Shown: positions 11,222-36,153 of the stretch, piece after piece
How positions within the stretch are numbered: the stretch's first letter is position 1
Layout of the letters: each line of letters starts with the position of its first letter
From: an uncultured Merdimonas sp.
Lineage (GTDB): Bacteria > Bacillota > Clostridia > Lachnospirales > Lachnospiraceae
Reading direction: 5' to 3'
Length of the DNA stretch: 37,792 bases
Assembly: GCA_944383645.1 (NCBI GenBank)
Contig: CALWQJ010000007.1
Coordinates: 1 to 37,792, forward strand
The notes under the pieces: model-generated
Told to the model about the DNA's origin: nothing
Database searches by the model: none
Seen by the model: the letters and a program-made list of their open reading frames with translations, nothing else
Translations under genes and position numbers: made by a program

Positions 11222-11238
11222 CTTCTTCTCCATTCCAG

Positions 11239-11276
11239 AAAAATGGACGAGGCGCCTGTCTGCCCCGTCCATTTTT
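11239..11276. terminator. Rho-independent terminator, bidirectional
   Basis: AAAAATGGACG (11239-11249) pairs perfectly over 11 bases with CGTCCATTTTT (11266-11276) around a 16-base loop. On the minus strand the stem ends in a T5 run right after the LCP gene, a classic intrinsic terminator. The A5 on the other arm makes it symmetric, so it could also act on plus-strand transcripts. Confidence 0.85.
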
Positions 11277-11284
11277 ATCCGGTC

Positions 11285-12502
11285 CTATTCTGTACTGCTG
11301 TCCGTCTCCTGCGCCACTACGCCTGTGTCCGCTATAATCTTTTCGTTGATCTCAAGCACCGTGGGCGACGGATAATAATCCGACTCGTCAAAGAGGAAGC
11401 GGTGAAGCTCCTTCACATTTGCCACCAGATCTGCCGGCACTACCACTTGCTGTCCGTCCATCCTGGCGTCCGCGCGGAGATTGGGGAAGCCGCTGGTCTC
11501 GCCAAGCTCATAGGACATCATGCTGGCTGCCATGCCAATCAGCGTGGTCTTGGGAATATTCGTGGCCACCAGCGGGAAGACCTCGTCGATCATATCATTG
11601 ATCTTGCCCAGACCCGCCGTCCTGGCCTTATCCACAATCTGCTCGATGACCCGGCGCTGACGCTCGGTTCTCTCGAAATCATTATTTCCGACCTTCCGGA
11701 TCCGGCAGTAGGCGGTCGCCTGTACGCCGTACAGCGTCTGAAGCCCTGGCTCCTCGATGAAGCTGTTGTAGGGGTTGATGGAATCATCCTCCGCCTTTTC
11801 CGCGATCTCCGTAGTCTCGTACATGTAGCCGTTGATGGCGTCCACCTCTTCCGGCTTCACGTCGATCTCCACGCCGCCCAGCAGATCCACCGTCTTGATG
11901 AGGGCGGTAAAGTCGATACTCACATAATATTTAATATTCAGGTCCAGGTTCGTATTCAGCATCTCCATGGCCTGCTTGGGACCGCCCTTGGAGTAGGCCG
12001 CGTTGCATTTGCCGTAAGTGTCGTCCGCCCGGTTCAGATAGGTGTCGCGGTAGACGGACATCATCCGCACTTCCTTGGTCTCGTTATTGATACTGGCGAT
12101 GATGATCGTATCGCTCAGCTCTCCCTTCCCAAGGCTGCCCGGCGTTCGGGAGCCCAGTCCGAAAAGAGCGATGTTCGTGTAGCCCTTCAGCAGCTTCGCC
12201 GTATCCTCGTCGATATCCTCATTCATGCTGACATCGTCCGCGTTCACTCCCAGATCCTGCAGCTTACTGAGCTTGCTCAGGCCATAGACGCCGATTCCCA
12301 GCACGAGGATCAGTACGAACTCCACCGCCAGGATCGCGATCAGCCTTCTCTTGCGCTTCGCTTTTTTGATCCGCTTCTGCTCCTTCCGGCTCAGCTTATA
12401 CTCGCCGTACTCGTCCTGGCCCTTCCGCGCTCCGTGTTCCTTATGTCTTCCGTTTCCCGAGTTCCTTTTTCCTGCATTTCTGCCTTTCGTATTGGTTGCC
12501 AT
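11285..12502 (-). CDS. LytR-CpsA-Psr (LCP) family glycopolymer transferase
   Basis: LCP proteins transfer finished glycopolymers from undecaprenyl pyrophosphate to the wall at the outer membrane face. The protein has a long lysine/arginine-rich cytoplasmic tail (about 1-53), one membrane helix (about 54-75), and an extracellular LCP domain. That domain carries LSDTIIIASI, MMSVYRDTYL with the catalytic Arg region, the GKCNAAYSKGG segment, and AYCRIRKVGNNDFERTERQRRVI with the conserved arginines. The start at 12502 (MATNTKG, 405 residues) follows AAAGGG; an ATG at 12532 has no ribosome site. It is the last gene before the terminator and is the likely anchoring step for this cluster's polymer. 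Confidence 0.93.
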   Translation of the reverse strand: MATNTKGRNAGKRNSGNGRHKEHGARKGQDEYGEYKLSRKEQKRIKKAKRKRRLIAILAVEFVLILVLGIGVYGLSKLSKLQDLGVNADDVSMNEDIDEDTAKLLKGYTNIALFGLGSRTPGSLGKGELSDTIIIASINNETKEVRMMSVYRDTYLNRADDTYGKCNAAYSKGGPKQAMEMLNTNLDLNIKYYVSIDFTALIKTVDLLGGVEIDVKPEEVDAINGYMYETTEIAEKAEDDSINPYNSFIEEPGLQTLYGVQATAYCRIRKVGNNDFERTERQRRVIEQIVDKARTAGLGKINDMIDEVFPLVATNIPKTTLIGMAASMMSYELGETSGFPNLRADARMDGQQVVVPADLVANVKELHRFLFDESDYYPSPTVLEINEKIIADTGVVAQETDSSTE

Positions 12503-12532
12503 AACATAACCCTTTCTACTGTTTCCCAACAT

Positions 12533-13942
12533 TTAATAGGCGTTCTTGTTAATAAAGCCTTTGAAAATTGTCAGAAATAAGATTTTTATATCAAACCCCA
12601 GCGTCCAGTTCTCAATGTAATAAAGGTCGTACTCGATTCGCTTGCGGATCGAGGTATTTCCCCGGTAACCGTTGATCTGTGCCCAGCCGGTCATACCCGG
12701 ACGCACCTGGTGTTTAATCATATAACGCGGGATCTCCTCCCGGAACTTTTCCACAAAAAACGGACGCTCCGGACGCGGTCCTACCAGACTCATGTCCCCT
12801 TTTAAAATATTAAAAAGCTGCGGAAGCTCGTCAATGCTTGTCTTCCGTATAATTTTTCCGACTTTGGTGACCCTCGGATCCCCCGGCACCGTCCAGGCGC
12901 CCCGCTCCTTCTTCGGCGACTGCACGTCCATGGAGCGGAATTTGTACATCCGGAAGGTCTTGTTGTGAAGGCCGACCCGCTCCTGGGTATAAATCAGCGG
13001 TCCCGGCGAGGTCAGCTTGATGGCGATGGCTGTGATCAGCATCACCGGCGAGAACAGAATAATCGCGAAGACGCTCCCTCCCAGATCCACGCAGCGCTTC
13101 ATAAACGCGTTGAAGGTATTGGTCAGCGGCACATGCCGGATATTGATGACGGGAAGCCCCATCAGATCCTCCGTATAGGGACGCGTCGGTATGATATTAT
13201 TGTAATCCGGAATAAATTTCGTATGCACGCCGGATTTTTCGCATACCGCCACGATATGCTCCAGCTTGGAGTACTCGCTTAAGCCCAGCGTGATCGCGAT
13301 CTCATCCGGCTTCGCCGCCTCCAGGACCCCGGCGATCTCCTCGGTCCGCCCGATGACCTCCACGCCCCGGTACTTCATGCCGGGCTGGACATTGTCATCC
13401 AGAATGCCCATGATGTCGTAGCCCCATTCGGGATTGGCCTTGATGCGGTCTATATATTCCTCCGCCGCGCGGCTGTAGCCTACCAGAATCATATGCTTCT
13501 GGTTGAAGCCTTTTTCCCGGATATGCTGCAGGGCCAGACGGATGAAATTACGGAAGAGGCACTCCAGCGTGATATTGATCAGATAGAACCAGGCCAGCAG
13601 CATTCGGGAGAAGTGGTTCGTAAATTCCAGATTTCCGCGGAAAAAGAACAGCGCTGTCATGAACAGCACCAGACCTATCGTATTGGCCTGCACAATCTTT
13701 TCCACTTCCACCCGTTTTCTGCGTACGCTTTTGGTGGTGTAAAGGCCGAAAAGGGCATAGATCACCACATAGAGCGGAACCAGCAGGGGCAGGATGCTCA
13801 TATAATGCCGGAATACCAGACCCGATGTGTTGTTCAGAAGCTGGAACTGCACCCACCATGCCAGCATGTATGACACCGCAATGATGCACGCGTCTATCAG
13901 CACGTGCAGGCGGTTGAAATGTCGCTGGTTGTCCTTAATCAA
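12533..13942 (-). CDS. Undecaprenyl-phosphate sugar-1-phosphate transferase (WcaJ/EpsL type)
   Basis: This polyprenyl-phosphate hexose-1-phosphate transferase starts a polysaccharide repeat unit on the lipid carrier. Of the 469 residues, the N-terminal third has four to five membrane helices. A Rossmann-like domain (MILVGYSRAAEEYI to about 260) follows. The C-terminal catalytic domain carries YKFRSMD, the active-site TSIDELPQLFNIL with Asp-Glu, MSLVGPRPERP and VRPGMTGWAQ. The donor is probably UDP-glucose or UDP-galactose by family. The start is TTG, six bases after the stop of the upstream gene, with GGTGAG as ribosome site. Confidence 0.93.
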   Translation of the reverse strand: MIKDNQRHFNRLHVLIDACIIAVSYMLAWWVQFQLLNNTSGLVFRHYMSILPLLVPLYVVIYALFGLYTTKSVRRKRVEVEKIVQANTIGLVLFMTALFFFRGNLEFTNHFSRMLLAWFYLINITLECLFRNFIRLALQHIREKGFNQKHMILVGYSRAAEEYIDRIKANPEWGYDIMGILDDNVQPGMKYRGVEVIGRTEEIAGVLEAAKPDEIAITLGLSEYSKLEHIVAVCEKSGVHTKFIPDYNNIIPTRPYTEDLMGLPVINIRHVPLTNTFNAFMKRCVDLGGSVFAIILFSPVMLITAIAIKLTSPGPLIYTQERVGLHNKTFRMYKFRSMDVQSPKKERGAWTVPGDPRVTKVGKIIRKTSIDELPQLFNILKGDMSLVGPRPERPFFVEKFREEIPRYMIKHQVRPGMTGWAQINGYRGNTSIRKRIEYDLYYIENWTLGFDIKILFLTIFKGFINKNAY

Positions 13943-13948
13943 TCTCTC

Positions 13949-14908
13949 TCACCCAAATCTCTTTGCAATGTTAATCCACAATTCTAACTGAATTTTAACA
14001 TAGGAGGGGAGGTTTTTCCAATGAAATCTCACCTTCCGCCCCTCCCGGCACAGCCGGAAGCCTTCTCTCAGGCCCTTCGCGTAGGTCCTGCCAAAGCCTT
14101 TTTTCATGAAAAAAAGGTATTTAAGGCCAAAGCCTGCCGCCAGAAGCGGCAGATTCAAAAGGATCTGAAGGAACGGCATGTTCTTCCAGATCAGATAAAT
14201 ATTATTGCGCGAGCTTAAGCTCACCTTGAATTCATTATAACGGGAGCCGCTGGTGCCGCTTCCCGCGTGAAGCACCTTCGCGGAGGGGACGTACAGATTC
14301 CGGTATCCCGCGATTCTGGCCCGCCAGCCGACGTCGATGTCTTCCAGATAGGCGAAATGCGCCTCGTCAAAGCTGCCAATCTTCTCAAACAGCTCTCTCC
14401 GGTAGGCCGCCGCTCCCGCGCAGGCCGCAAACACAGCGCCCGGCTCTTCATAGCGTGCCGCCGGCCGGTCCTTTCCTCTCGCGAAGGCCCAGCCCAAAGC
14501 GCAGTAATAATTACCCGCGTCGTCAATCCTTTCCGGATCATACAGAGATATCAGCTTCGCCTGGGCAGAAAACGCCCGGCCGTCCGCCTCAAGGGCGTCC
14601 GCAAGCGCGTCGGTAAAGCCCGGAAGCACCTCGGTATCATTATTCAATAAAATCACGTAAGGCCGCGAGGCTGCCCGGATTCCCTCGTTGACCGCCCGGG
14701 GAAAGCCATAATTCTGATCCAGGGCGATCAGCCGCACGCCGGGAAACTCCCGTTCCACCAGCTCCCGGCTCCCGTCCGCAGAACCGTTGTCCACCACCAG
14801 AAGCTCCGCCTCCGGAGCGTCCGAAAGCAGCGCCTTCAGACAGGCCGCAAGGAACCTTTTTCCGTTGTAATTGGGTATCACGACAGATACCTTATTATCT
14901 GCTCTCAT
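13949..14908 (-). CDS. GT2 glycosyltransferase (WbbL-like)
   Basis: This 319-residue GT-A transferase shows VSVVIPNYNGKRFL, LLVVDNGSADGS, the metal-binding LLNNDTEVLP, and the acceptor-side FAYLEDIDVGWRARIAGY. These are the features of WbbL-like rhamnosyltransferases. A hydrophobic or amphipathic C-terminal segment (IYLIWKNMPFLQILLNLPLLAAGF) probably binds the membrane. The donor is not provable from sequence. The start overlaps the end of the preceding gene by 14 bases and has only a weak ribosome site, which suggests coupled translation. Confidence 0.9.
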   Translation of the reverse strand: MRADNKVSVVIPNYNGKRFLAACLKALLSDAPEAELLVVDNGSADGSRELVEREFPGVRLIALDQNYGFPRAVNEGIRAASRPYVILLNNDTEVLPGFTDALADALEADGRAFSAQAKLISLYDPERIDDAGNYYCALGWAFARGKDRPAARYEEPGAVFAACAGAAAYRRELFEKIGSFDEAHFAYLEDIDVGWRARIAGYRNLYVPSAKVLHAGSGTSGSRYNEFKVSLSSRNNIYLIWKNMPFLQILLNLPLLAAGFGLKYLFFMKKGFGRTYAKGLREGFRLCREGRKVRFHWKNLPSYVKIQLELWINIAKRFG

Positions 14909-16349
14909 ACATCACCGCCCAGGGCTCGTAATAAATGGGATACCCCTCTTTTTTCAGCCGCGCGCAGAGCTCCGGAAGGGAAATCTCCCTTCTGTCCCCC
15001 AGAAGCTCCCTGCGGATCAGAAAGCAGTCCGTGGGACCTTCCAGCTCCTGCTGCAGAACCGCCCTGTGGAAATAGCCGGTATAGTCGGCCTTCAGTCCCT
15101 CCAGTCCCTTCGAAAAGGGATCGCGGACGCCGGCCATCCGGACGCCGCCACGGAGCCGCCGGTCCTTCCCGTAGACCCGGGCGCAGGCCATCCCTGTCTC
15201 CGGCCTCCCGCAGCAGGCAAGCAGCTCCGAAAAGAAGCCTGCATTCACCTTCGCTTTGCGGACACAGGTAAAAAGCACATAATCCTCCTCCCCAGAAATT
15301 GTTACAGAATTATTACATGCCTTATCATAATATACAACGTTTATACCTGTTTGTCCATCAAAATTTTCAAAAGATTTTATTAATAATTCCGAACTTCCGG
15401 GATACCGGACCCTGAAAAATCCATAATTTTCCGTGTCCAGGACCTGTCCGGACCGGCCCGTGCGCTCCAGGTGAGCCGCCACCGCCCGTTTTCCCGCCTC
15501 GTAGGCGTAAAGCTTGCTCTCGGGATTGGCCGCCGTGGAAGCCGCATGACAGCGCCAGGAGTACAGGATTTTCGGGACGTGGACCACCCTCCGGGCGTTT
15601 TCCGTACAGCGCAGGATGAAATCATGGTCCTGGGCGCCGTCGAATTCCTCCCGGAAGCCTCCGGCCTCCAGAGCGATCTCCCGCTTCACCAGGAAGAAAT
15701 GACAGATATAATTATTGCTCCTCAGATACTCCGGGTTGAAATCCGGCTTGAAATGGGGCTGGAAATGCCTGTTCCGCTCCGGATCCAGCTTATCCTCATC
15801 GGTATAGACCGCGTCCACCGGCTCGCCGTCGTTCAGGGCGCGCACGATCTCAAAAAGGGCCCCCGGAAGCAGCAGATCGTCGTGATCCAGAAGGCCCACA
15901 TATTCCCCGGAGGCCAGCTCCAGGGCCGCATTCGTATTGCCGGAAATTCCAAGATTCTCCGAAAGCTTCCGGTACCGCACCCTGCTGTCCCGCCGGGCGT
16001 ATTCCTGCGCGATACGTTCCACCCGGTCCGAGGGGCTGCCGTCCGCGATGCACAGCTCCAGCCGTCCATAGCTCTGGCGCAGCACAGAATCCATCAGCTG
16101 CCGCAGAAAGGGCTCCGGCGTCTCATAGGCGGGAACCAGGATGCTGACAAGCGGCGCGAAGGCAAATTCCGTCTCCCGCTGCCGCTTCGTCTCCTCCTCT
16201 CCGGGAAGCTGGGCCAGAAGCCAGCTCTCATAATCCCGCTCCGCCCGGTTCCGGTCCCGTCTTTCCTTCACCTTCCGGTACAGGGAAAGCATCCCGTGCC
16301 GCCGCACAAAGCGCAGTCCCCGCCCGCAAAGTCCGGTCAGTTTTCCCAT
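14895..16349 (-). CDS. GT2 glycosyltransferase with degenerate second domain
   Basis: The 484-residue protein begins with a basic segment, then a GT2 domain (about 65-300) with LVSILVPAYETPEPF, LELCIADGSPSD, LLDHDDLLLP and the GAQDHDFILRC acceptor motif. After a linker, residues 325-484 align in order with the second GT2 domain of the tandem transferase at 33425-35386. Here the expected LLNND site is replaced by LFTCVRKA and the NDVDFC site is missing, so the second domain looks inactive. AGGAGG lies five bases before the ATG. It overlaps the next GT gene by 14 bases. Confidence 0.9.
   Translation of the reverse strand: MGKLTGLCGRGLRFVRRHGMLSLYRKVKERRDRNRAERDYESWLLAQLPGEEETKRQRETEFAFAPLVSILVPAYETPEPFLRQLMDSVLRQSYGRLELCIADGSPSDRVERIAQEYARRDSRVRYRKLSENLGISGNTNAALELASGEYVGLLDHDDLLLPGALFEIVRALNDGEPVDAVYTDEDKLDPERNRHFQPHFKPDFNPEYLRSNNYICHFFLVKREIALEAGGFREEFDGAQDHDFILRCTENARRVVHVPKILYSWRCHAASTAANPESKLYAYEAGKRAVAAHLERTGRSGQVLDTENYGFFRVRYPGSSELLIKSFENFDGQTGINVVYYDKACNNSVTISGEEDYVLFTCVRKAKVNAGFFSELLACCGRPETGMACARVYGKDRRLRGGVRMAGVRDPFSKGLEGLKADYTGYFHRAVLQQELEGPTDCFLIRRELLGDRREISLPELCARLKKEGYPIYYEPWAVMYESR
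15329..15357 (-). promoter_or_regulatory. Possible internal promoter within a glycosyltransferase gene
   Basis: In an AT-rich patch of an otherwise GC-rich gene, the minus strand reads TGGACA (15352-15357), a 17-base spacer, and TATATT (15329-15334). Each hexamer matches the consensus at five of six bases. It would drive the downstream GT2, sugar-1-phosphate transferase and LCP genes. It may equally be a chance match in AT-rich sequence. Confidence 0.35.
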
Positions 16350-16358
16350 AAATGCCTC

Positions 16359-17033
16359 CTAGAAGGTCACTTCGCCGTCGTGGGCGATCAGGGAAGCCGA
16401 CTGCACCGTATCCAAAGCGCAGACCGCCTTCATAAAGGCGCTTTCTTCCTTTACCCGCACCTCTACAATCATATCCATGCGGCCGCCGGAGATATTGCGG
16501 GAACGCACCTTGTAGAAGCGGCTGTATTTCTTTACCACATCCAGTACACGGGACTCATCCTCCGCGTCAGACAGATTCGCCACCAGCATCATGGGAGCTC
16601 TGGAGGCCGGAATATTCTCCAGCACCAGCACCAGCACCGTTACCACCAGACAGGTCAGAAGAGCCACCTCGTAAAGGCCCGCTCCGCAGATAATGCCCAC
16701 GCTGATGGACCAGAACAGAAATACCAGATCCATCGGATCCTTGATAGCCGTACGGAAACGGACGATGGACAGGGCGCCGACCATACCAAGGGAAATCACC
16801 AGGTTGGACTGCATGGCCAGGATAATCGCAGCCGTGATGACAGACATCGCAGCCAGAGCCACGTTAAAGCCCTTGGAGTAGAAGGACTTCCGGGTCATCA
16901 GCCGGTAAATCAGGAAAATGTAGCAGGCCAGAATGCAGGTCACCGTAAAGGTCGCCATAATGCGTCCGGCAGAAATGTCCATGCTGGTAAATCCTTCCAG
17001 AAACGAGTTCTTAAATACATCTTGAAATCCCAT
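16359..17033 (-). CDS. DUF4956 membrane protein
   Basis: The 224-residue protein has three or four membrane helices between residues 22 and 140 and a soluble C-terminal domain (about 145-224) with alternating strands and helices. The stretch MVGALSIVRFRTAIKDPMDLVFLFW is the conserved core of DUF4956. Its biochemical role is unknown. Proteins of this family are repeatedly found beside VTC-type polyphosphate polymerases, as here, so it may be the membrane partner that anchors the polymerase or passes its product. GGAGG lies eight bases before the ATG. The 86-base gap to the upstream gene holds a 6-base-pair hairpin (17070-17075 with 17084-17089). Confidence 0.9.
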   Translation of the reverse strand: MGFQDVFKNSFLEGFTSMDISAGRIMATFTVTCILACYIFLIYRLMTRKSFYSKGFNVALAAMSVITAAIILAMQSNLVISLGMVGALSIVRFRTAIKDPMDLVFLFWSISVGIICGAGLYEVALLTCLVVTVLVLVLENIPASRAPMMLVANLSDAEDESRVLDVVKKYSRFYKVRSRNISGGRMDMIVEVRVKEESAFMKAVCALDTVQSASLIAHDGEVTF

Positions 17034-17119
17034 TCATTGTTCCTCCAATTTTCTCTCTCTATGAATATACGCTGTTCTCCCGTACAGCGGTTATTCCGGC
17101 TTCAGGTACAGGTACCCCT

Positions 17120-17815
17120 TCAGGCGCGGATCCCGGAAGGGGAAAAGCGTCTGCAGAGGTAATATTTCGAAAAAGCTGTCTGCCGCAGATGGGAAAGCTG
17201 CAGGTTCCGATACAGATGATCCGGCAGAAATTCATCGTATTTGACCTCCAGGATCTGCTTTCCGGCAGGCAGGATCGGCCTTCCCGGAATCTCCCTTTCC
17301 AGAAACGACTGGACCGCGTTCGAAGAGCGGATATTCCGGTCGAATGTGATCCGCGTATTCCCCAGCTTTTCCACAAAGGGGGTTCTATCATATTCCACAA
17401 TCACCTTCGGGCGCAGCAGGCGGGTCCGCATCAGAAGATTCAGCTTCTGCAGCACCGGCGGATGGGAAGGATCAAAGGGCAGCGGTCTGCCCGCCATCAG
17501 CTCCCGGCACTGGTCCACCGTCAGACGGCAGGAAAGCTTCTGCGTCATGCTGTGCTGCTTTCTTTTCAGCTCCAGGCTGATCCGCTCTGCGCTGCCGTTA
17601 TAAATCCGGATGCGGAATTTCTCTCTCGGATCCGTCCCCATCTCATTTTCCCGGTAATAGGTATCCTCAAAATCATCAAAATACAGGCTGCGGATCCGAT
17701 ACGTCCCGTCGGCCCCCGCATGGCTGTCCGGCGCGATCAGGTTCCGGATCCGGTTCTCCAGAAGCGCCAGCTGCATCTCCGACACCATGTATTTGAGCTC
17801 ATTTCGATAATCCAC
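17120..17815 (-). CDS. VTC-domain polyphosphate polymerase
   Basis: The 231-residue cytosolic protein is essentially one VTC tunnel domain, the fold that makes polyphosphate from ATP in yeast Vtc4. The basic and acidic tunnel residues are present: RNELKYMVS at the start with K8, KFRIRIY with R68 and R70, LELKRK with E82 and K84, VEYDRTPF, ITFDRNIRSS, and ILEVKYDEFLP near the end. No membrane helix is present, so it probably depends on the DUF4956 neighbour. The start is GTG at 17815 with GGGAG seven bases upstream. It sits between a CotH gene and the DUF4956 gene. Polymerase activity is inferred from the fold. Confidence 0.9.
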   Translation of the reverse strand: MDYRNELKYMVSEMQLALLENRIRNLIAPDSHAGADGTYRIRSLYFDDFEDTYYRENEMGTDPREKFRIRIYNGSAERISLELKRKQHSMTQKLSCRLTVDQCRELMAGRPLPFDPSHPPVLQKLNLLMRTRLLRPKVIVEYDRTPFVEKLGNTRITFDRNIRSSNAVQSFLEREIPGRPILPAGKQILEVKYDEFLPDHLYRNLQLSHLRQTAFSKYYLCRRFSPSGIRA

Positions 17816-17853
17816 GCTCTTTCTCCCTTCTCCCTGCCGGGCCTTACTGCTCC

Positions 17854-19497
17854 TTACTGATATCCAAGGCCCAGGTACTCCTCAAGGTTCCCGTCAAAGT
17901 AATAGTCCAGAAGCTTCATGCGGTAAAGCGCCATCCTTGTGAACAGCCCGTAGTCCTGTCCGGAATTGCTGTCCGGCCAGCGCTCCTGGTCCCGGGCCAG
18001 CGCTCCGGAATCCACCACCTGGGCAGCCAGCCCCTCGATAGCCTCTGTCAGGCTGTCGTCCGAGAGCGCGCCCTGGCGCAGCTCCTTCCATCTTTCCCCC
18101 ACATAGGAGCGAGAGCCTTCCACATCCAGTTCAATCAGCCGGTCTCCGAAGCTCCAGTTGATCCGTTCGGAGTAGAGGGCCGTGTTCAGCCCCACATCCC
18201 AGATCTTTCCATCTGTTCCCTCACTCAGAGCGTCGCCCCAGGTGATATCCATATCCCAGGGGGCAAAATAGATTTTCTGCGAGGCGCCCCTGTTTTTGGA
18301 CACATAATACATATTTTTCCCGCGGTTGTCAATTCCCAGCACCGCCTGCAGATAGATCCAGACGTCCAGCGCCCCCTCCTGATCCGTAAGCAGCGGCGCT
18401 TTTTCCGCAAACTCCTGATCATCGGCCAGATCGCGGAGCTCCAGATAGGACAGGAGCGGTTCCCAGGCGCTTCTGTCGATGGAGGAATGCACGCCCTTCA
18501 GCTCATAGCCCGACAGGGTCTCCCCCCAGGCCTCCTGGCTTAGCAGCTCTTCTGTGGGCTCGCTCTGCGGCGTCACCGATTTGTAGGAATATTCCTCCGG
18601 GGCGCCCTCTCCCTCCTTCGTCCGGTCCAGCTGCCGGGAATCCACCGGCTCCATCAGCGCGTACAGGCCCCAGTATTCATGATTGAAGAATACCTCCACA
18701 TAGGTCATCCGGGTGCCGAAATAGGCGTTTGGAAATTCCTGCTGAACCGCGCCGATCTGCGACCAGATATCCGCGCTCAACTTGTCGCGGATTTTGGAGG
18801 AATCGCTGTACATGGCGTTCAGCAGCCACTCGTCATCCGTGCGGAGGCCGAAGAGGGATTTTTTGTCCTCCACAATCTCTCCCTTTTTATTCTGCTTCTT
18901 CAGGTTCAGCTTATACCCCTTTTTTTCATAGGTCCGGCTGGTATTCCCGCGGATATTGGCCTCCAGGATGCTGGAGGAGGTCCAGTCAGCCTTTGTCCCG
19001 CTGTCCCAGAAATAGACGCTTCCGCCGAAGACCTCCATATCCGCCGCGGCCTCCGTCTCGATGGAAACCACCGGAAGGCCTGTCACGGTCAGCCAGCATT
19101 CCTGATATTCCTCTCCGCGGACGGCGTAAAACCGGAAGCGGTCTCCGTTTTTTATGGCCTCCTGCTTGTCCGCGTCAGTGAAATCCTCCTCAAAGAGCAG
19201 ACTGACGTCTGCGGCCAGGCTGGTCAGCGTTCCCGTCTCCCACTCCTTCGTCTCCATATTGAGAGGCAGGTAGAAGGTGGACGTCCCAATATCATAGGGA
19301 AGCTGCTCTCCGGAAAAGGCCAGCCCGGTAAAAAATGGCTCCGCCGCCTCCGTATGGGTGGCCAGAAGCTGCGCGGTCTCCCCGGCCGTCCCCGCATGGA
19401 AGGCCACCGGCCCCCGCAGGAGCGGCCACAGAAACAAAAAAGACAGACAGCCTGCCAGCAATATCAAATTCAGAAAAAGAGCCATCCGTCTCTTCAC
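17854..19497 (-). CDS. CotH-family kinase, membrane anchored (first copy)
   Basis: CotH is an atypical kinase that phosphorylates spore coat proteins in Bacillus. This 547-residue protein has an N-terminal signal anchor (residues 6-27), so its domain should lie outside the membrane. It keeps the family blocks: IRGNTSRTYEKKGYKLNL (182-199), WLLNAMYSDSSKIRDKL, EVFFNHEYWGLYALMEPVD, GIDNRGKN with D390, and APWDMDITWG with D415 and D417. The spacing of the two acidic sites matches the catalytic and magnesium aspartates of CotH. The start is GTG, overlapping the upstream paralogue's stop by four bases (GTGA). The substrate is unknown; a spore role is not implied by the context. Confidence 0.9.
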   Translation of the reverse strand: MKRRMALFLNLILLAGCLSFLFLWPLLRGPVAFHAGTAGETAQLLATHTEAAEPFFTGLAFSGEQLPYDIGTSTFYLPLNMETKEWETGTLTSLAADVSLLFEEDFTDADKQEAIKNGDRFRFYAVRGEEYQECWLTVTGLPVVSIETEAAADMEVFGGSVYFWDSGTKADWTSSSILEANIRGNTSRTYEKKGYKLNLKKQNKKGEIVEDKKSLFGLRTDDEWLLNAMYSDSSKIRDKLSADIWSQIGAVQQEFPNAYFGTRMTYVEVFFNHEYWGLYALMEPVDSRQLDRTKEGEGAPEEYSYKSVTPQSEPTEELLSQEAWGETLSGYELKGVHSSIDRSAWEPLLSYLELRDLADDQEFAEKAPLLTDQEGALDVWIYLQAVLGIDNRGKNMYYVSKNRGASQKIYFAPWDMDITWGDALSEGTDGKIWDVGLNTALYSERINWSFGDRLIELDVEGSRSYVGERWKELRQGALSDDSLTEAIEGLAAQVVDSGALARDQERWPDSNSGQDYGLFTRMALYRMKLLDYYFDGNLEEYLGLGYQ

Positions 19498-21086
19498 TCT
19501 ACATACTCCTTCAAATCCAGGTAAGCCAGCGGATCCTGGAGCTGTTCATCCAGGAAGGCCATCCGCCCGCAGGCCAGCTCCTTCAGGCTCTCATAATCGC
19601 CGTTGTGCCCGCTGCTTACCCAGCGGGCTCCATCCCGGTCAAAGGCTCCGGAATCCACCACCTGATGGGCGTACGAGTCAATATGCTCCGTCAGCCATTC
19701 ATCCGAATACACCGTCTGGCGCAGCTCCTGCCAGCGCTCCTTCACCTTCTCCCGGGCGTTCTCCACGTCCAGCTCTATCAGCCGGTCGCCCAGCTTCCAG
19801 GCAATCCGCATGGTCAGGATCTCCTCGGAGAAACGGGTCCGGTTGCCCGCGTCAAAATCATGCACATTTCCCCAGGAATAATCCATATCCCAGGGCAGGA
19901 AGCGCAGCCGGTACTGCCCGTCCTCCCAGACCGCCGGATAGAAAATATTTCTCTCGATATTATCCATGCCGATGACCGCCTGCAGATACAGCCAGACATC
20001 CAGCGCATTGTCCACATCAATCAGATCCGGAACCGCTTCCTTAAAATCGGAATTGTCTCCCTCCAGATAAGCCAGATAAGCGTTCAGAAGCTCAAAATCC
20101 TCCTCTGTCTGCTCTGTCCAGCTTCCCTTCAGTTCGAAGACGCCCGGGTCCTTCTGCTTGTACAGGTATTCCACCGGCTGGGCCTCGTTCTCCTTTGTCA
20201 GGTCCAGCTGCTTGTAATCCACCGGCTCCATCAGCCCGTAGATTCCATAATATTCGCCGTTCTGGAAGACCTCGATATACTCCATATGATACCCGTAAAA
20301 GCCCTCGGAGTCAATCTCCAAAGCTCCGGATTCGTTCCATACGTCCAGAGAAAGCTTGTCGCGGACCTTCGTGTCCTCGCTGTACATGGCGTAAAGGAGC
20401 CATTCGTCATCCTCCCGCATTCCCAGAAAGGAGAGGTGGTTCTGCCGTAAGGCACCGCTTCCCGTCTGATTTTTCTTATACAGCGTCATCTTATAGGACT
20501 TCTTCGGATTCAGCCGGCTGCTTCCGCCCCGGATATGGGCGCTCATGACGCTCTCCGTCACCCAGTCCGCCTTGGAATCCGCCTCATAAAAGCGCATGGT
20601 TCCGTAGATTTCCTCATAGCGGATCTCCGCCCCGGTATCCGTATCCAGCGTCAGGATCGGCAGTCCGGTAAACACCAGCGCATACTCCCGGCAGACGTCT
20701 CCCTTCACTGCCAGCAGCCGGTAGCTCTTCCCGGACCGGACGGCCTCCTGCTTGTCGTCCTCCAGCGGATTGTCGAGAAGCCAGACCTTTACACCGGAGA
20801 CCGCCGCCTGAAGAGTCCCTCTCTCCCAGGAGGGCTCGTCCATATCCACCGGCAGATAAAAGGTGCCGGAAGCCCTGTCGCAGGGAAGCTCCTCCCCGGC
20901 GAAGATAAGTCCCGGCAGAATCTCCTCCTCCGTAACCGTCCGGCCGTCCATAAGCGCCTCCGCCCTCTGCCCGGTCAGCGCCTGCGTCCCCATATCCGGC
21001 AGCTCCGGCGGAAAAGCCACAAACCGCAGGTATCCGCAGATAAGCAGAAGCAGTCCGATTCCAAGCGCTGTCCTTCGATTCCGCAT
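19494..21086 (-). CDS. CotH-family kinase, membrane anchored (second copy)
   Basis: This paralogue of the next gene has 530 residues from the start MRNRRTALG at 21086, chosen for AGGAG six bases upstream. A longer reading to 21188 would start inside the gtrA gene and cross a hairpin. It has a signal anchor (about 6-22), IRGGSSRLNPKKSYKM, WLLYAMYSEDTKVRDKL, EVFQNGEYYGIYGLMEPVD, GMDNIERN with D375, and LPWDMDYSWG with D400 and D402. Both acidic sites are intact, so both copies look active. It is the first gene of the kinase/polyphosphate module and lies 88 bases after gtrA. Confidence 0.9.
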   Translation of the reverse strand: MRNRRTALGIGLLLLICGYLRFVAFPPELPDMGTQALTGQRAEALMDGRTVTEEEILPGLIFAGEELPCDRASGTFYLPVDMDEPSWERGTLQAAVSGVKVWLLDNPLEDDKQEAVRSGKSYRLLAVKGDVCREYALVFTGLPILTLDTDTGAEIRYEEIYGTMRFYEADSKADWVTESVMSAHIRGGSSRLNPKKSYKMTLYKKNQTGSGALRQNHLSFLGMREDDEWLLYAMYSEDTKVRDKLSLDVWNESGALEIDSEGFYGYHMEYIEVFQNGEYYGIYGLMEPVDYKQLDLTKENEAQPVEYLYKQKDPGVFELKGSWTEQTEEDFELLNAYLAYLEGDNSDFKEAVPDLIDVDNALDVWLYLQAVIGMDNIERNIFYPAVWEDGQYRLRFLPWDMDYSWGNVHDFDAGNRTRFSEEILTMRIAWKLGDRLIELDVENAREKVKERWQELRQTVYSDEWLTEHIDSYAHQVVDSGAFDRDGARWVSSGHNGDYESLKELACGRMAFLDEQLQDPLAYLDLKEYVE

Positions 21087-21111
21087 CATCCGCTCCTTTC
21101 CGCTTTTCACA

Positions 21112-21174: not shown

Positions 21175-21603
21175 TCAGTGCTTCTCAATGAAAATCTTTC
21201 TTGTGATGAAATTATATACCATCACCACAGCAGTCGCAAAGATTTTCACCACCATGTAGGCGTACCGTGAATACGCCGCCAGCGCCTGGCTCTGCTCCAT
21301 CAGGTGCTCCAGCCAGGAGGTCCCGCCCCACATACAGAGCTGGTTGATGCCCAGGCCAATCAGGCTCAAGACCACGAACACGATGAACTGTACGACCTTG
21401 TTGGCCTCCTTGTCCGCGTCGAAAACCACAGTAACACTCAAGATATAATTTACGATTGTCGAAATGGTATAGGAGACGCCGCTGGAAATCAGCGAGGGGA
21501 TTCCCACCAGCTCCGTCAGTCCGACCATGATGGCGTAGTCGATGAAGAAGCAGAGGAAGCCCACGGCTCCGAATTTGATGATTTGTGCGAGTAGTTTTTT
21601 CAT
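21175..21603 (-). CDS. GtrA-family membrane protein
   Basis: The 142-residue protein has four membrane helices and the GtrA pattern: an N-terminal IIKFGAVGFLCFFIDYAIM helix, VSYTISTIVNYILSVTVVF, and a C-terminal KIFATAVVMVYNFITRKIFI. In phage serotype conversion GtrA is thought to flip undecaprenyl-phosphate-linked sugar made by GtrB. The DPM-like transferase at 24932-25912 is a candidate GtrB-type partner. CGGAG lies seven bases upstream of the ATG. Confidence 0.92.
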   Translation of the reverse strand: MKKLLAQIIKFGAVGFLCFFIDYAIMVGLTELVGIPSLISSGVSYTISTIVNYILSVTVVFDADKEANKVVQFIVFVVLSLIGLGINQLCMWGGTSWLEHLMEQSQALAAYSRYAYMVVKIFATAVVMVYNFITRKIFIEKH

Positions 21604-21619
21604 AATGGTTCTCCGGTTT

Positions 21620-21955
21620 TTAAAGGTAATAGATAAAAATGCCAGTCAGAATCAGAAGGTTTCCGATTACTTTTCTTTTTGTAATCTTTTCTCCAAAAAA
21701 GAGCCTGCTCCAAAGCATAACCAGTAAAAATCCTACTGAGTCTATTACAGGACCATTTTTATAATCCACACCCCGATACGCAAAGACTGTCAGAAGTGTA
21801 GACAGCACCATCATTCCATATCCGATAATGACCCAGGGATTCAGATATTCTCTCCAGACAGAGGAATACTCTTTCAATGCACTTTTTTTCAGAAGGATCT
21901 GTGAAAATGATGCCACAATCACAGAACCCAGCAGCAAAAGATAATATTCATTCAT
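21620..21955 (-). CDS. Half-size EamA/SMR transporter, ArnE/ArnF-like (subunit 1)
   Basis: The 111-residue protein has four membrane helices in the small multidrug resistance/EamA half-unit arrangement, with KKSALKEYS after helix 1 and a final LFFGEKITKRKVIGNLLILTGIFIYYL. The GE(K/R) near the start of helix 4 is typical of this superfamily. It overlaps the next half-size gene by eight bases, which suggests a heterodimer, as for ArnE/ArnF (flippase for undecaprenyl-phosphate aminoarabinose). Drug efflux is an alternative, but the glycosyltransferase context favours lipid-linked sugar. Confidence 0.82.
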   Translation of the reverse strand: MNEYYLLLLGSVIVASFSQILLKKSALKEYSSVWREYLNPWVIIGYGMMVLSTLLTVFAYRGVDYKNGPVIDSVGFLLVMLWSRLFFGEKITKRKVIGNLLILTGIFIYYL

Positions 21956-22298
21956 CCGTATTCACCAAAACTGTTCCTGCCAGGACAATCAGTACGCCCA
22001 GCACATTGTTAATTGTTATCCTTTCATGGAAGAAAACTACCGCCCAGACAAGCGACCACAGAATGGCCATAGAGCGGTTCGCATACGCAACTGACAGATC
22101 AAATCTTTTGATCATCTGCTGCCAGAGAATTGCATAGACGCCAAGGATTGCCATTTCCAGTCCATAAAAAAAGATGAACTGCCAGGAAAACATCTCGTAC
22201 CCTGCCGCGCCCTTGGCCGCCACGCCCGACAGGGTATAAATTACAATGACAAGCTGCAGAATGATGATGCTTTTCAGACTGATTCGTTTCTTCTCCAT
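21948..22298 (-). CDS. Half-size EamA/SMR transporter, ArnE/ArnF-like (subunit 2)
   Basis: This 116-residue, four-helix partner of the preceding entry starts MEKKRISLKSIIILQ at 22298, one base after the GltS-like gene's stop, with GGAG ten bases upstream. A longer reading to 22391 overlaps that gene and is rejected. It contains VAYANRSMAILWSLVWAVVFFHERITINNVLGVLIVL, the C-terminal signature of the EamA superfamily. Unlike its partner it has Glu rather than Gly-Glu at the helix 4 entry. Pairing as a heterodimer is inferred from the gene overlap. Confidence 0.8.
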   Translation of the reverse strand: MEKKRISLKSIIILQLVIVIYTLSGVAAKGAAGYEMFSWQFIFFYGLEMAILGVYAILWQQMIKRFDLSVAYANRSMAILWSLVWAVVFFHERITINNVLGVLIVLAGTVLVNTDE

Positions 22299-22299
22299 T

Positions 22300-23682
22300 T
22301 TATAGCTTCTCCAGTATCTCTTTTTCACCTGGCCGGAGTGCATCTGCCTTTTCCTTCGCGATGCCATACCGTATTCCCGAGAGCACCACACACAAGGCTG
22401 CGGCTGCCGTCAGCACAAGCCCTGCTACCAGCCCGTATCCCTGGAGCACCAGAAGCGGCAGAAATGTCACACAGGCAATATCTATAAAAGAAATAAAAAT
22501 CCACGCAAAGCCAGAGTCTTCCAAGACGCCGCTCTTAAATTCCGGATCTACTACCCGCAGGAGCAATACCGCAATACTCATTACGCCTGTTGACCAGCCG
22601 AATATGTAGATTCCACGTTCTACCCAAAAATTTCGGAAAAATTTCCGGGAAATGATGAAAAAGAACAAAACTACAAACACTGTCCCCAGCAGGCACAAAA
22701 GCAGCATGGGTTTCCAATATTGAATCACTACTCCAATATTAATCGTTGCCACTCCAAATCCCACCAGATAATCCGCTGCGCAGCTTCCGATTCTCGAAAT
22801 AACTCTACGGTCTACATATTCATTCAGACTGCACCATTTCAAAATTTTCTGGACAACTAACCCGCACACAAGAGCCAGACCATAAATCGGTATTGAAATA
22901 TTCGGAAACCATTTAACGATATAGAAATTGATCAAATACGCTCCGCCTACCGAAACCATAACCAGCCCCAGATGCCAGGTCAGCGGATCCAGGGACATGG
23001 GGCTGATCGTATTCTCGCCCATGGACGTCCTGTTTTCTTTATATATCAGGCCTGTCTTCATATCCTCCGGCATGGCACTGATTTTTCTGATAATCCGTGT
23101 ATAGCCCCTGCGAGCGCAGAAATTAATAATCGCAATTCCCCCAAAAATGCCAAGAAGAAGGCCAAAGGTAGCAAAGGTCTGCCCGATAGTCAGAGCATCA
23201 CTCCAGCCCGCGCCTTCCAGCATGCTTCCGATCGCCGCCGCTGTTCCATGTCCGCCAACAAAGCCTGCAGGCATCATCAACGCAAAACAGCTGTGAATCC
23301 CGGGGAAAAGTGCTCCCAGAACAAAAATGCCAAACAGGATAGCCACTCCATATTGACCTATCTCGGAAGCTGTATTCAGAAAAAATGTATCTCCCACACC
23401 GTCCAGCATCTTTTTAAAGCTTGCTTTTTCCTGCCTTCCAAGATACATGGTAGCAAACAGTACCGCTATCAGAATTCCAGAATAGGAAGAAGCCTGGGAA
23501 CTGAGCGGAAGAATATCGAGACCAAAAGGCCCTCCTGCCACTCCAAGGAAGCCAGCTATCAACGCTGTGGGAATATACAGATTTTGAAACAATTTTATCT
23601 TTGTCCTTATTACCTTAGCTATAAAAATCAGCAAAGACATCAGACAAATATCATACAGTAATGTTACTGGGGTAAACTCCAT
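22300..23682 (-). CDS. GltS-like sodium/glutamate symporter family protein
   Basis: The 460-residue polytopic protein has ten or more membrane helices and the GltS reentrant motif PAGFVGGHGTAAAIG near residue 150, with an inverted second half. GltS carriers import glutamate with sodium. The start ATG at 23682 has GAGG seven bases upstream; a TTG two codons earlier is less likely. A carrier inside a polysaccharide operon, directly beside an ATP-grasp ligase, is unusual and suggests a linked role. Substrate identity is inferred from the family only. Confidence 0.85.
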   Translation of the reverse strand: MEFTPVTLLYDICLMSLLIFIAKVIRTKIKLFQNLYIPTALIAGFLGVAGGPFGLDILPLSSQASSYSGILIAVLFATMYLGRQEKASFKKMLDGVGDTFFLNTASEIGQYGVAILFGIFVLGALFPGIHSCFALMMPAGFVGGHGTAAAIGSMLEGAGWSDALTIGQTFATFGLLLGIFGGIAIINFCARRGYTRIIRKISAMPEDMKTGLIYKENRTSMGENTISPMSLDPLTWHLGLVMVSVGGAYLINFYIVKWFPNISIPIYGLALVCGLVVQKILKWCSLNEYVDRRVISRIGSCAADYLVGFGVATINIGVVIQYWKPMLLLCLLGTVFVVLFFFIISRKFFRNFWVERGIYIFGWSTGVMSIAVLLLRVVDPEFKSGVLEDSGFAWIFISFIDIACVTFLPLLVLQGYGLVAGLVLTAAAALCVVLSGIRYGIAKEKADALRPGEKEILEKL

Positions 23683-23697
23683 AACCAATCCTCTTTT

Positions 23698-24969
23698 CTA
23701 TTCTGTTATATTTCTGTCATAATTAGGGAGCTGATTGTGGTATATCAAACTGCGCCCATCTTCTCCCGTCACTTGGAATGTCTCAAAGAGCCGTTCCGTC
23801 TGCCTGTCAATTTCCTCCCGAGTATCTGCCTGAAGATACACTCTGGCCACATAAGGCTTCGCCCCTACACCATGGCTAATCACTTCTCCTTCACTGTAGT
23901 AAATAATAGATTCCTCAGGATGGATTTTCGCAATTGCTTTCTCTGCTTCTGACAGATCACATATTTTTCCTTCGTATCCGTGAAAATACAAACCCGCAGA
24001 ATGTTTCGGAAAATGAGCGTCATGCTTTTTCAGTTTTTCTCTCATGCGCCCTTCCTCATACACATAATCCAACAGCAGTTCCTCAATGTCAAAGCCGCTT
24101 CCATAGGTCACCAGTTCATGTTCATAGCCAAATAAACGGCCCGCGCACTCGCAAACCTCTATTCCCTGCCCGGCTTTGTAAAAAAACTGCATGGATAAGG
24201 GACCTGTTTGAATTCCTGTATAATCAGCCACTTTCTTTATAATCTTTCTTGCTTCTTCGTAAACAGCGTCAATCACACGGGAAGGGTAACATACACGGCT
24301 CACATGCGGAATATCCCCCTTAATCTCCACAGATTTTTCGCGATCTGCCAGACTCAGTGTGTATACCTCGCCATCTGCCATCCAGTTCATCATGTTGAAT
24401 TCAAGACCATCGTTATAACTTTCTACAAGAATATCATCCGGATAAGTAGAATATTGTGAAACTCGATCAAAAAGCTTCCGTATCTCCTCTGCGCTGTCCA
24501 CAATATAAATTCCTCTGGAACCATATCCGTTTACAGGCTTAATAACCACAGGATAAGAAAAATCTTTTATCTCTTCTTCTCTAAATCCCCGATGAATCTT
24601 CCTCGATTTCGGCGTTGGAATTTCCAACTCATCAAACATTTTCTTCATTTCAGATTTTGCACGCAGATATACAGATTTTTCTGATGTACAATAGGTTTTT
24701 AATCCAGCTTTTTCCGCTATCTTTACAAGATATTCGAACAGAATATCCGAAAAAGATGCAATAATTCCATTGATTTTCTCAATTCTGCAGACTTCTACTA
24801 TCTCATCGACCTTTCTGATATCGATATCATAAGCCTTATCGGCATATTTCTTTGCCGGTCCATCTGGATAACCGTCACAGACTACAGTATAGATTCCTCT
24901 TTTTTTTGCTTTATTCACTAATTCAATAAACTCATCCATTGAGCCCAGAATCATCAGTCTCTGTTCCAT
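23698..24969 (-). CDS. ATP-grasp carboxylate-amine ligase
   Basis: The 423-residue cytosolic ligase has an N-terminal pre-ATP-grasp Rossmann domain (MILGSMDEFIELVNKAKKRG), a central ATP-binding loop YPVVIKPVNGYGSRGI at about 140, the LVESYNDGLEFNM strand, and a metal-binding IEVCECAGRLFG stretch at about 270. ATP-grasp enzymes of this type activate a carboxylate as acyl phosphate and join it to an amine, such as an amino acid. The substrate is not determined. The start overlaps the upstream glycosyltransferase by 38 bases. The context suggests acylation of the aminosugar made by the aminotransferase at 25935-27065. Confidence 0.88.
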   Translation of the reverse strand: MEQRLMILGSMDEFIELVNKAKKRGIYTVVCDGYPDGPAKKYADKAYDIDIRKVDEIVEVCRIEKINGIIASFSDILFEYLVKIAEKAGLKTYCTSEKSVYLRAKSEMKKMFDELEIPTPKSRKIHRGFREEEIKDFSYPVVIKPVNGYGSRGIYIVDSAEEIRKLFDRVSQYSTYPDDILVESYNDGLEFNMMNWMADGEVYTLSLADREKSVEIKGDIPHVSRVCYPSRVIDAVYEEARKIIKKVADYTGIQTGPLSMQFFYKAGQGIEVCECAGRLFGYEHELVTYGSGFDIEELLLDYVYEEGRMREKLKKHDAHFPKHSAGLYFHGYEGKICDLSEAEKAIAKIHPEESIIYYSEGEVISHGVGAKPYVARVYLQADTREEIDRQTERLFETFQVTGEDGRSLIYHNQLPNYDRNITE

Positions 24970-25912
24970 TTTCAGAACACTCTCCTTTTCTATCTACATT
25001 AATCGTTCTTTTTATTACATACTGAGGAGCGCTGTTAATACACATAAAAATTCTTCCGACATATTCTCCTATAACGCCCATAAACAAAAGAACTACTCCA
25101 AAAAAAATCATCATAAAACAGATAATAGAAGCATATCCGGCCACCATGCTGGGATCCATAAGTTTTCTAATACCCACAACAAAGGCAGAGATAAAACCAA
25201 TAAATGAAAATAGGATTCCTAAAATTCCCGCAATCCGCAAAGGGAAGACTGTGAAATTGGTAAAATTAGACCACAGCTTTATTAGCTTTTTTAAATTATA
25301 TCCAGATTGCCCCTCACTTCTCTCAAAATGTTCGATCTCCACATTGGCAATTTTTCCAGCTGTTCTCAAAAACAGCCCTTCCATAAACGCATAAGGATGT
25401 GTATAGTTAATCAACTCATCACGAATATATTTTCTGGTAACCCAAAAACTTGTAAAGTCCAGATCTTTTGGCTTTCCCATTACAATATGTTCAAATATAT
25501 TATCCATTTTCGTAAGAAGGTTTCGAAATGCCGAATGCTTTTTCTTTTTATACTTTCCCAGTACAAGATCGTATCCTTCCTTCAATTTATCAAGCAAAAC
25601 AGGAATATTTTTAGGATGTGTCTGCATATCATCATCCATATTGACAATGATATCTCCTTCAGCATAATTCAATGCAGTCAGCTGTGCATTTGCCTGTCCC
25701 GTATTTTTAGCCAAGTCTATAACCTTGATGTCTGAATTTTCTTTTCCAAGCTTCAGTATTCTTTCACAGCTTTCCGGATTTGGTGAACAATCGTTCACCA
25801 GTACAAATTCATACTCTGTAACCCCTATTTTTGCAAATACTGCTCTTGTCTCCTCAATCAGACAGTTAAGCATATGTGTGGAATTGTAACATGGAACAAT
25901 GACAGAAATCAA
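24932..25912 (-). CDS. Polyprenyl-phosphate glycosyltransferase (DPM/ArnC/GtrB type)
   Basis: The 326-residue GT2 enzyme makes a polyprenyl-phosphate-linked monosaccharide. Features are ISVIVPCYNSTHML, VNDCSPNPES, the catalytic VNMDDDMQTHP at about 95, the SFWVTRK segment, and two membrane helices near the C-terminus (about 230-255 and 265-290). The YNLKKLIKLWSNFTNFTVFPLR helix joins the domains as in GtrB. The start is TTG at 25912, with GGGAGG eight bases upstream and no closer ATG. It can pair with GtrA or the ArnE/F-like proteins. The sugar is unknown, but the flanking aminotransferase suggests an aminosugar. Confidence 0.9.
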   Translation of the reverse strand: MISVIVPCYNSTHMLNCLIEETRAVFAKIGVTEYEFVLVNDCSPNPESCERILKLGKENSDIKVIDLAKNTGQANAQLTALNYAEGDIIVNMDDDMQTHPKNIPVLLDKLKEGYDLVLGKYKKKKHSAFRNLLTKMDNIFEHIVMGKPKDLDFTSFWVTRKYIRDELINYTHPYAFMEGLFLRTAGKIANVEIEHFERSEGQSGYNLKKLIKLWSNFTNFTVFPLRIAGILGILFSFIGFISAFVVGIRKLMDPSMVAGYASIICFMMIFFGVVLLFMGVIGEYVGRIFMCINSAPQYVIKRTINVDRKGECSENGTETDDSGLNG

Positions 25913-25934
25913 TTTTTCTTCCTCCCGGCAACTG

Positions 25935-27065: not shown

Positions 27066-27068
27066 CTT

Positions 27069-28778: not shown

Positions 28779-28779
28779 T

Positions 28780-30564: not shown

Positions 30565-30579
30565 GTCTTTTCCTCCCTG

Positions 30580-31542: not shown

Positions 31543-31558
31543 ATCCTACGTCCTCCGT

Positions 31559-33385: not shown

Positions 33386-33424
33386 GCTCTCTCCCTGCTT
33401 CTGCCTTTCTTTGCTTATATTTAC

Positions 33425-35386: not shown

Positions 35387-35394
35387 GTTCTCCC

Positions 35395-36144: not shown

Positions 36145-36153
36145 GGTTCTCTC

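Follow-up and report, generated by a model that had tools for sequence, protein, structure and literature searches.

ATP is scarce outside the cell, and how kinases acting there are supplied with energy-rich phosphate is an open question. This question is raised by a 37,792-nucleotide stretch of DNA from an uncultured Merdimonas sp. (contig CALWQJ010000007.1; the whole stretch is referred to below as the window), in which genes for a putative polyphosphate polymerase (VTC domain), a membrane partner (DUF4956) and two predicted exported kinases (CotH) form one cassette. We report that the neighbourhood of VTC, DUF4956 and a partner gene is far above chance across genomes, and we consider what such a cassette may do. 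The window belongs to a draft genome of 2.7 Mb that is 92% complete, and the closest named relative among those returned is Lachnoclostridium sp. An131, whose VTC protein is 85% identical. Papers are cited by PMC number, for the part of their text that was available.

A cassette of four genes in the window

A preliminary description of the window, made from the sequence alone, had reported four adjacent genes with a four-base overlap. This was confirmed: the genes occupy positions 16359-21086 of the minus strand, they are transcribed in the order CotH-1, CotH-2, VTC, DUF4956, and all four products score above the curated Pfam cut-offs. Their features, with protein lengths in amino acids (aa), are as follows.

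19494-21086, minus strand: CotH-1, ATG start at 21086, 530 aa; PF08757, 2.4e-39
17854-19497, minus strand: CotH-2, GTG start, 547 aa; PF08757, 1.2e-38
17120-17815, minus strand: VTC domain protein, soluble, GTG start, 231 aa; PF09359, 1.1e-36 (127 bits, cut-off 23)
16359-17033, minus strand: DUF4956 membrane protein, 224 aa; PF16316, 3e-13 (50.3 bits, cut-off 30.6)

The two CotH proteins reach 133.8 and 136.2 bits against a cut-off of 23.8. The overlap (19494-19497) is shared by the start of CotH-2 and the stop of CotH-1. The open frame of CotH-1 extends up to 21188, and AAGGAG precedes tandem ATG codons at 21089 and 21086. The four-gene set is flanked by a GtrA gene and a glycosyltransferase gene, within a long polysaccharide locus.

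Conservation of the cassette across genomes

In a sample of 249 genomes drawn evenly from Bacillota, VTC and DUF4956 were found in the identical 37 genomes and never apart (Fisher 5e-45). DUF4956 lies within 6 kb of 43 of the 44 VTC genes, which bears out the earlier statement that the two are often neighbours; the 44th VTC gene and the DUF4956 gene of that genome are both situated at contig ends. CotH was detected in 35 genomes, 31 of which also carry VTC, and within 6 kb of 28 of the 44 VTC genes. A second family, Cthe_2159, which Pfam annotates as binding carbohydrate rather than as a kinase, was present in 26 genomes, including 21 with VTC. All 37 VTC genomes encode CotH or Cthe_2159, compared with 9 of the 212 others, and 38 of the 44 VTC genes have a member of one of these two families within 6 kb in the same orientation. 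The count of neighbours across Firmicutes proposed in the preliminary description thus revealed a conserved arrangement.

Similar results were obtained for 61 relatives, where DUF4956 was located within 6 kb of 62 of 64 VTC matches, always downstream and in the same orientation (of the remaining two, one is a weak, partial match). For no fewer than 42 of the 64, a same-strand CotH gene was located at up to 6 kb. A set of named loci comprised the best 80 of at least 583 and leans to near relatives; here DUF4956 is near 83 of 84 VTC copies, the remaining copy being at a contig end. Among named loci with full flanks, i.e. no less than 3.5 kb to either side of VTC, DUF4956 is present in 54/54, CotH in 50/54, and CotH or Cthe_2159 in 51/54. 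In the set of G-numbered genomes CotH accompanies 20 of 40 VTC copies, and either partner 26 of the 31 copies with full flanks.

CotH genes of the named loci were called with our own profiles and in part checked against Pfam; all ten doubtful open reading frames (ORFs) that were tested, as well as that of locus L052, proved to be true CotH. The second of the CotH profiles also picks up LTD domains, so that the CotH labels of loci L129-L132 and L111 are wrong (tested with Pfam for L129, L131 and L111, and assumed for L130 and L132).

In a tree of 89 VTC copies, at least 14 changes of CotH placement and gene order were counted, without a shuffled control and on a quick tree in which 35 of 119 inner branches are weakly supported. 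Since the linkage survives these reshufflings, mere inheritance is unlikely to account for it, which argues for a shared function. Outside Bacillota, the genes for VTC, DUF4956 and CotH are consecutive and co-oriented in Nonomuraea gerenzanensis (Actinomycetota), with CotH recognized by our own profiles at about 1e-15. A conserved module within Bacillota, with one case in Actinomycetota, is therefore supported.

Relatives of VTC were also observed in five plasmid records and in four unannotated gut contigs labelled as phage (MT836222, MT838813, MT837266 and MT835527), although the latter may be bacterial DNA.

Variation of the exported partner

Twenty regions were fetched because an earlier scan had found no CotH near VTC. 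In 13 of them Cthe_2159 is encoded on the same strand. Four others (L129-L132) contain DUF4956 and VTC followed by an LTD or LRR-LTD surface protein (tested with Pfam in L129 and L131), which we regard as a third type of partner, and three regions have neither a Cthe_2159 nor an LTD partner. As the exported partner varies, the constant core of the cassette is VTC plus DUF4956, accompanied by CotH, Cthe_2159 or both.

The Cthe_2159 loci (L118-L125, L127, L128 and L135-L137) form a sister cassette, composed of VTC-DUF4956 and then Cthe_2159, often with a two-component pair. Such a pair adjoins some of the 80 named loci, where it forms clusters of 10 and 8; other cases were noted by eye.

Genes for Ser-rich proteins similar to CotB/CotG were considered as a source of CotH substrates. 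Only three same-strand candidates were found in the 120 loci screened, and a nearby substrate of this kind was rejected as a feature of the module.

Predicted functions of the VTC, DUF4956 and CotH proteins

The VTC domain spans residues 4-220 of the 231-residue protein and is the sole Pfam family found in it; no SPX domain was detected with Pfam. The best 19-residue hydropathy window reaches 0.45, i.e. there is no hydrophobic segment, and across the relatives just one of 124 VTC proteins passed the membrane-segment test. In an alignment of 31 VTC proteins, 19 columns are invariant and 16 of these hold charged residues, including R4, E6, K8, K66, R68, R70, K84, K93, R144, R155, E190, K192 and K217; no fewer than 90% of the proteins share E82. 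A soluble protein with tunnel residues, as initially described, is thus recovered. The profile of the 31 proteins matches yeast Vtc4 (3g3q) at 9.7e-21. Counted along the profile alignments, R68 and R70 correspond to Vtc4 R264 and R266, and E190, in a second stretch of weak alignment, corresponds to E426; R264, R266 and E426 were mutated together to inactivate Vtc4 (PMC9911596). Judged by this similarity, the window protein is most likely a cytosolic enzyme making polyphosphate from ATP. VTC is treated in eukaryotes in PMC10657179.

A 715-residue frame encoding PPK1 is located elsewhere in the window genome, so VTC is not its sole polyphosphate enzyme, and a role of VTC as the only such enzyme of the cell was ruled out for this genome. 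Within the phylum sample, PPK1 was found in 12 of the 37 VTC genomes and in 25 of the 212 others (p 0.004), and 25 VTC genomes have no PPK1. The presence of PPK1 elsewhere in the genome is consistent with a dedicated role of VTC that is tied to a location.

The AlphaFold model of the DUF4956 protein agrees with its initial description as a membrane protein: it contains five predicted membrane helices (residues 22-49, 54-73, 79-96, 100-117 and 121-140) and a C-terminal alpha/beta domain (residues 148-217). Similarity to MgtC is below the Pfam cut-off. A motif RFR is located at residues 92-94, and both R92 and R94 are present in all 104 tabulated relatives (84 near and 20 far); the motif also occurs in five of five plasmid-borne DUF4956 proteins. 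In the far clade, linked to Cthe_2159, RFRS.PG mostly stands in place of RFRTAIK. According to the positive-inside rule, the motif is probably placed where a membrane helix meets the cytosol.

The description of the CotH proteins as a signal-anchored pair with intact aspartates also holds. Their best 19-residue hydropathy windows begin at residue 7 (CotH-1, 2.14) and residue 5 (CotH-2, 2.45), and both proteins are predicted to be anchored in the membrane and exposed outside the cell, not cytosolic. Among relatives, 107 of 113 ORFs labelled CotH (5 of these labels are not CotH) carry an N-terminal hydrophobic segment; of the six without it, four start at a contig edge and two are short pieces. 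Such a segment is likewise found in 21 of 25 Cthe_2159 proteins.

D390 and D415 of CotH-2, kept in 48 and 50 of 50 aligned proteins, respectively, align to the NFDG and PWDYD motifs of 5jd9; the counterparts in CotH-1 are MDNIERN (D375) and PWDMD (D400). The AlphaFold model of CotH-2 has a pLDDT of 92.1, and its best Foldseek matches are 5jd9/5jda, the CotH protein of Bacillus cereus (E 1e-17; TM 0.75 by target). We take the NFDG aspartate to be D228 of Bacillus subtilis CotH, and the catalytic and metal-binding roles of the two aspartates are our own assignment. The D228Q variant of B. subtilis CotH is catalytically inactive (PMC7821199).

Further CotH domains, in frames of 516-830 aa, were observed in the window genome away from VTC, on contigs C42, C94 and C125.

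A putative surface-phosphate cassette and its alternatives

We propose that the cassette serves to place phosphate at the cell surface, with VTC as the synthetic enzyme, DUF4956 as its membrane partner and perhaps its exit, and an exported protein that uses or binds polyphosphate; to this reading we assign an even chance. Homology and conserved residues suggest that cytosolic VTC would first build polyphosphate from ATP. VTC would then dock on DUF4956, where the RFR motif could feed the polyanion into the membrane or across it, a role that may be compared with that of the basic residues in the upper channel of yeast VTC (PMC9911596). Finally, a membrane-anchored protein outside the cell, i.e. 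the CotH pair in the window and Cthe_2159 in the sister loci, would receive the polyphosphate. The CotH pair might either phosphorylate surface proteins or glycan with it, or anchor it there. The polysaccharide operon may be a chance seat of the window copy, its polymer being one possible acceptor. If the proposal is correct, DUF4956 gains a role, and bacteria gain a counterpart of the synthesise-and-export machine of yeast.

Several observations weigh against this proposal. In Streptococcus intermedius, deletion of the DUF4956 or the CotH gene lowered aggregation by more than 50% in one medium, while lower aggregation is not reported, in the available text, for deletion of VTC; Pel was more abundant in the DUF4956 mutant and less abundant in the CotH mutant (PMC12345266). 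A simple chain from VTC through DUF4956 to CotH implies that the three deletions should behave alike, which is not what is reported. Another source of polyphosphate, a polyphosphate-free role of DUF4956 and CotH, or an insensitive readout may explain this mismatch. The DUF4956 model has a pLDDT of 79.4, falling to a middling 65-71 in the block around the RFR motif. Among the 50 Foldseek matches listed for it there is no channel fold and none at E <=0.001; those listed are soluble ACT-like, microcompartment and similar small domains, and a channel fold was accordingly dropped as a candidate on the basis of this list. Moreover, DUF4956 was found without VTC nearby on Hymenobacter and Sinorhizobium plasmids, and since RFR is kept in such proteins, the motif is not specific to VTC. 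Finally, neither CotH nor Cthe_2159 occurs within 6 kb of 6 of the 44 VTC genes in the phylum sample, and of the 85 full-flank VTC copies six have neither family and two more have an LTD protein instead.

On Sinorhizobium pSymA (L163, 3272-5639), the ORF next to a DUF4956 gene without adjacent VTC looks, by eye, like a caspase fold.

According to a narrower explanation, polyphosphate made by VTC and exported by DUF4956 would replace ATP as the phosphate donor of extracellular CotH. Both CotH aspartates are kept, and a CotH protein predicted to lie outside the cell is encoded near a polyphosphate polymerase gene at many module loci (at least 42/64, 28/44 and, with full flanks, 50/54); in addition, the ATP source for spore CotH has been called an unanswered question (PMC7821199). 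However, spore CotH uses ATP in vitro (PMC7821199), the solved CotH binds AMP with Mg2+ according to the title of 5jda, Cthe_2159, not described as a kinase, replaces CotH in some loci, and the available text on S. intermedius does not report that deletion of VTC resembles deletion of CotH (PMC12345266). The Cthe_2159 replacement and the S. intermedius deletions make a donor role less likely than the general reading of polyphosphate export, and we consider it improbable. It is equally doubtful that the cassette constitutes self-contained extracellular phosphorylation fed by exported polyphosphate, also in its version with the non-kinase Cthe_2159. No model with polyphosphate as the donor for CotH was found in the literature searched, subscription papers being outside its scope.

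A regulatory explanation holds that CotH phosphorylates surface or synthesis proteins and thereby tunes the polysaccharide, while VTC and an MgtC-like DUF4956 manage internal phosphate. Regulation of Pel through phosphorylation by CotH has been proposed (PMC7112168), and Pel amounts are altered in two of the S. intermedius mutants (PMC12345266). The sub-threshold similarity of DUF4956 to MgtC and its ACT-like domain point in the same direction, as does the interpretation given in PMC12345266. However, a polysaccharide operon was seen at few module loci (judged partly by eye), there is no tie to PelG, and both the inseparability of VTC and DUF4956 in 249 genomes and the exported third partner would be left unexplained, so that this explanation also appears unlikely.

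The VTC fold family is catalytically diverse, and measured bacterial VTC activity was not met in a limited literature search, both of which would suit a cassette that makes no polyphosphate. That the VTC protein is instead a tunnel-fold triphosphatase or transferase is nevertheless very improbable, given that all three inactivating Vtc4 positions of PMC9911596 are conserved and that the VTC profile matched ten structures at E up to 0.1, each of them a Vtc2, Vtc3 or Vtc4 protein.

Comparison with known systems

The preliminary description knew of no system of this kind, which was too strong a statement: in the literature searched, the three families have been described together, though only as accessory genes of pel operons in Gram-positive bacteria (PMC7112168, PMC12345266), and NELoc-2 of Clostridium perfringens contains genes for VTC and CotH (PMC2879425, PMC11677781). 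The components are known and their combination is partly in print; the cassette is real, widely conserved and little studied.

The pel accessory genes cotH-PPP-DUF4956 (S. intermedius SIR_1594-1593-1592) encode the same three families in adjoining positions, next to a polysaccharide operon, and their CotH protein is predicted to be secreted. PMC12345266 describes SIR_1592 as an MgtC-like protein that has an ACT domain; its identity as DUF4956 rests on PMC7112168 and on its shape. Unlike these sets, the window has no pelG next door and contains two CotH genes.

NELoc-2 and a Planococcus maritimus plasmid locus of like order combine VTC, CotH and a glycosyltransferase, as does the window. In NELoc-2 each VTC gene is followed by a gene for a membrane protein of 222-226 aa, which we take as DUF4956 from its place and length. 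In both loci the genes after CotH encode an unnamed protein, a protein with HEAT repeats and a glycosyltransferase, whereas no HEAT protein was found among the scanned window proteins. In Table 4 of PMC2879425, two membrane proteins of 222-226 aa that follow VTC are named tubulin/FtsZ GTPase; they are probably misnamed DUF4956 proteins.

The yeast VTC complex (Vtc1/3/4; PMC9911596) shares with the window the polymerase domain and the coupling of synthesis in the cytosol to a membrane partner that carries basic residues. In contrast to yeast, the window polymerase has neither an SPX domain nor a membrane helix, and DUF4956 takes the place of the Vtc membrane domains. The DUF4956 profile gave no match to Vtc1 at E up to 10, and no Vtc membrane domain was present among the 50 listed fold matches. 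Hence, the window set may work like the eukaryotic VTC complex without being a member of it.

The spore-coat CotH of Bacillus (5jd9/5jda; PMC7821199) has the fold and catalytic aspartates in common with the window proteins. The latter differ in being predicted as membrane-anchored and in their length (530-547 aa compared with 359 in the solved spore CotH chain), and genes resembling Ser-rich substrates are not a feature of their module.

Polysaccharide setting of the window copy

The cassette had originally been described as one module in a polysaccharide operon. The module stands, but the operon does not define it. When the glycan genes of the window were used as queries, same-strand relatives were detected at 8 of 59 CotH-labelled loci (a low-sensitivity scan, in which the 59 include the mislabelled L129 and L131) and at none of 10 loci with Cthe_2159 only, the difference not being significant (p 0.59). 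Several cassettes appear free-standing, with neighbouring ORFs judged by eye. Near relatives of the window have the module among glycosyltransferases, as does plasmid pNP95 of Pseudobutyrivibrio xylanivorans. Pfam analysis of 118 of 169 picked neighbour proteins assigned 119 families, the commonest being glycosyltransferase family 2 (11/118). With glycan genes at few module loci, a polysaccharide operon was rejected as the defining common factor, and the setting of the window copy looks local.

The authors of PMC12345266 state, in the available text, that their analyses did not detect this arrangement anywhere but at the Pel locus. In the phylum sample PelG was detected in 2 of the 37 VTC genomes and 6 of the 212 others (p 0.34), and pelG lies beside the module in one genome (G161). 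The window genome, at its 92% completeness, gave no PelG match, and the Pfam scan of 30 window proteins matched neither pel nor DUF4832. The cassettes away from pelG bear on the statement limiting the arrangement to the Pel locus. A linkage of the cassette to Pel was rejected, as VTC genomes are not tracked by PelG.

Other genes of the window

The Pfam scan covered 30 of the 36 translated ORFs of the window; two plus-strand frames among the 36 are probably spurious. The genes around the cassette, assigned with Pfam, are listed below.

10295-11272, 13949-14908 and 14895-16349, minus strand: three glycosyltransferases, downstream
11285-12532, minus strand: LytR-CpsA-Psr protein, downstream
12533-13942, minus strand: sugar-phosphate transferase, downstream
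21175-36942, minus strand: upstream polysaccharide genes (GtrA, two EamA, ATP-grasp, glycosyltransferases, DegT aminotransferase and DUF6020)
35395-36942, minus strand: ABC-type export pair, upstream

Three ORFs of no known family are interspersed among the upstream polysaccharide genes. A membrane protein of 462 aa, encoded at 22300-23688 in the middle of the polysaccharide locus, has no match in Pfam or NCBIfam. The same is true of two adjoining genes (27069-28778 and 28780-30564), whose products are similar membrane proteins of 569-594 aa with a common stretch around YDINDD or YGINDD. A "DUF6056" protein encoded near a CotH gene on a Pseudobutyrivibrio plasmid is perhaps a relative of these two proteins.

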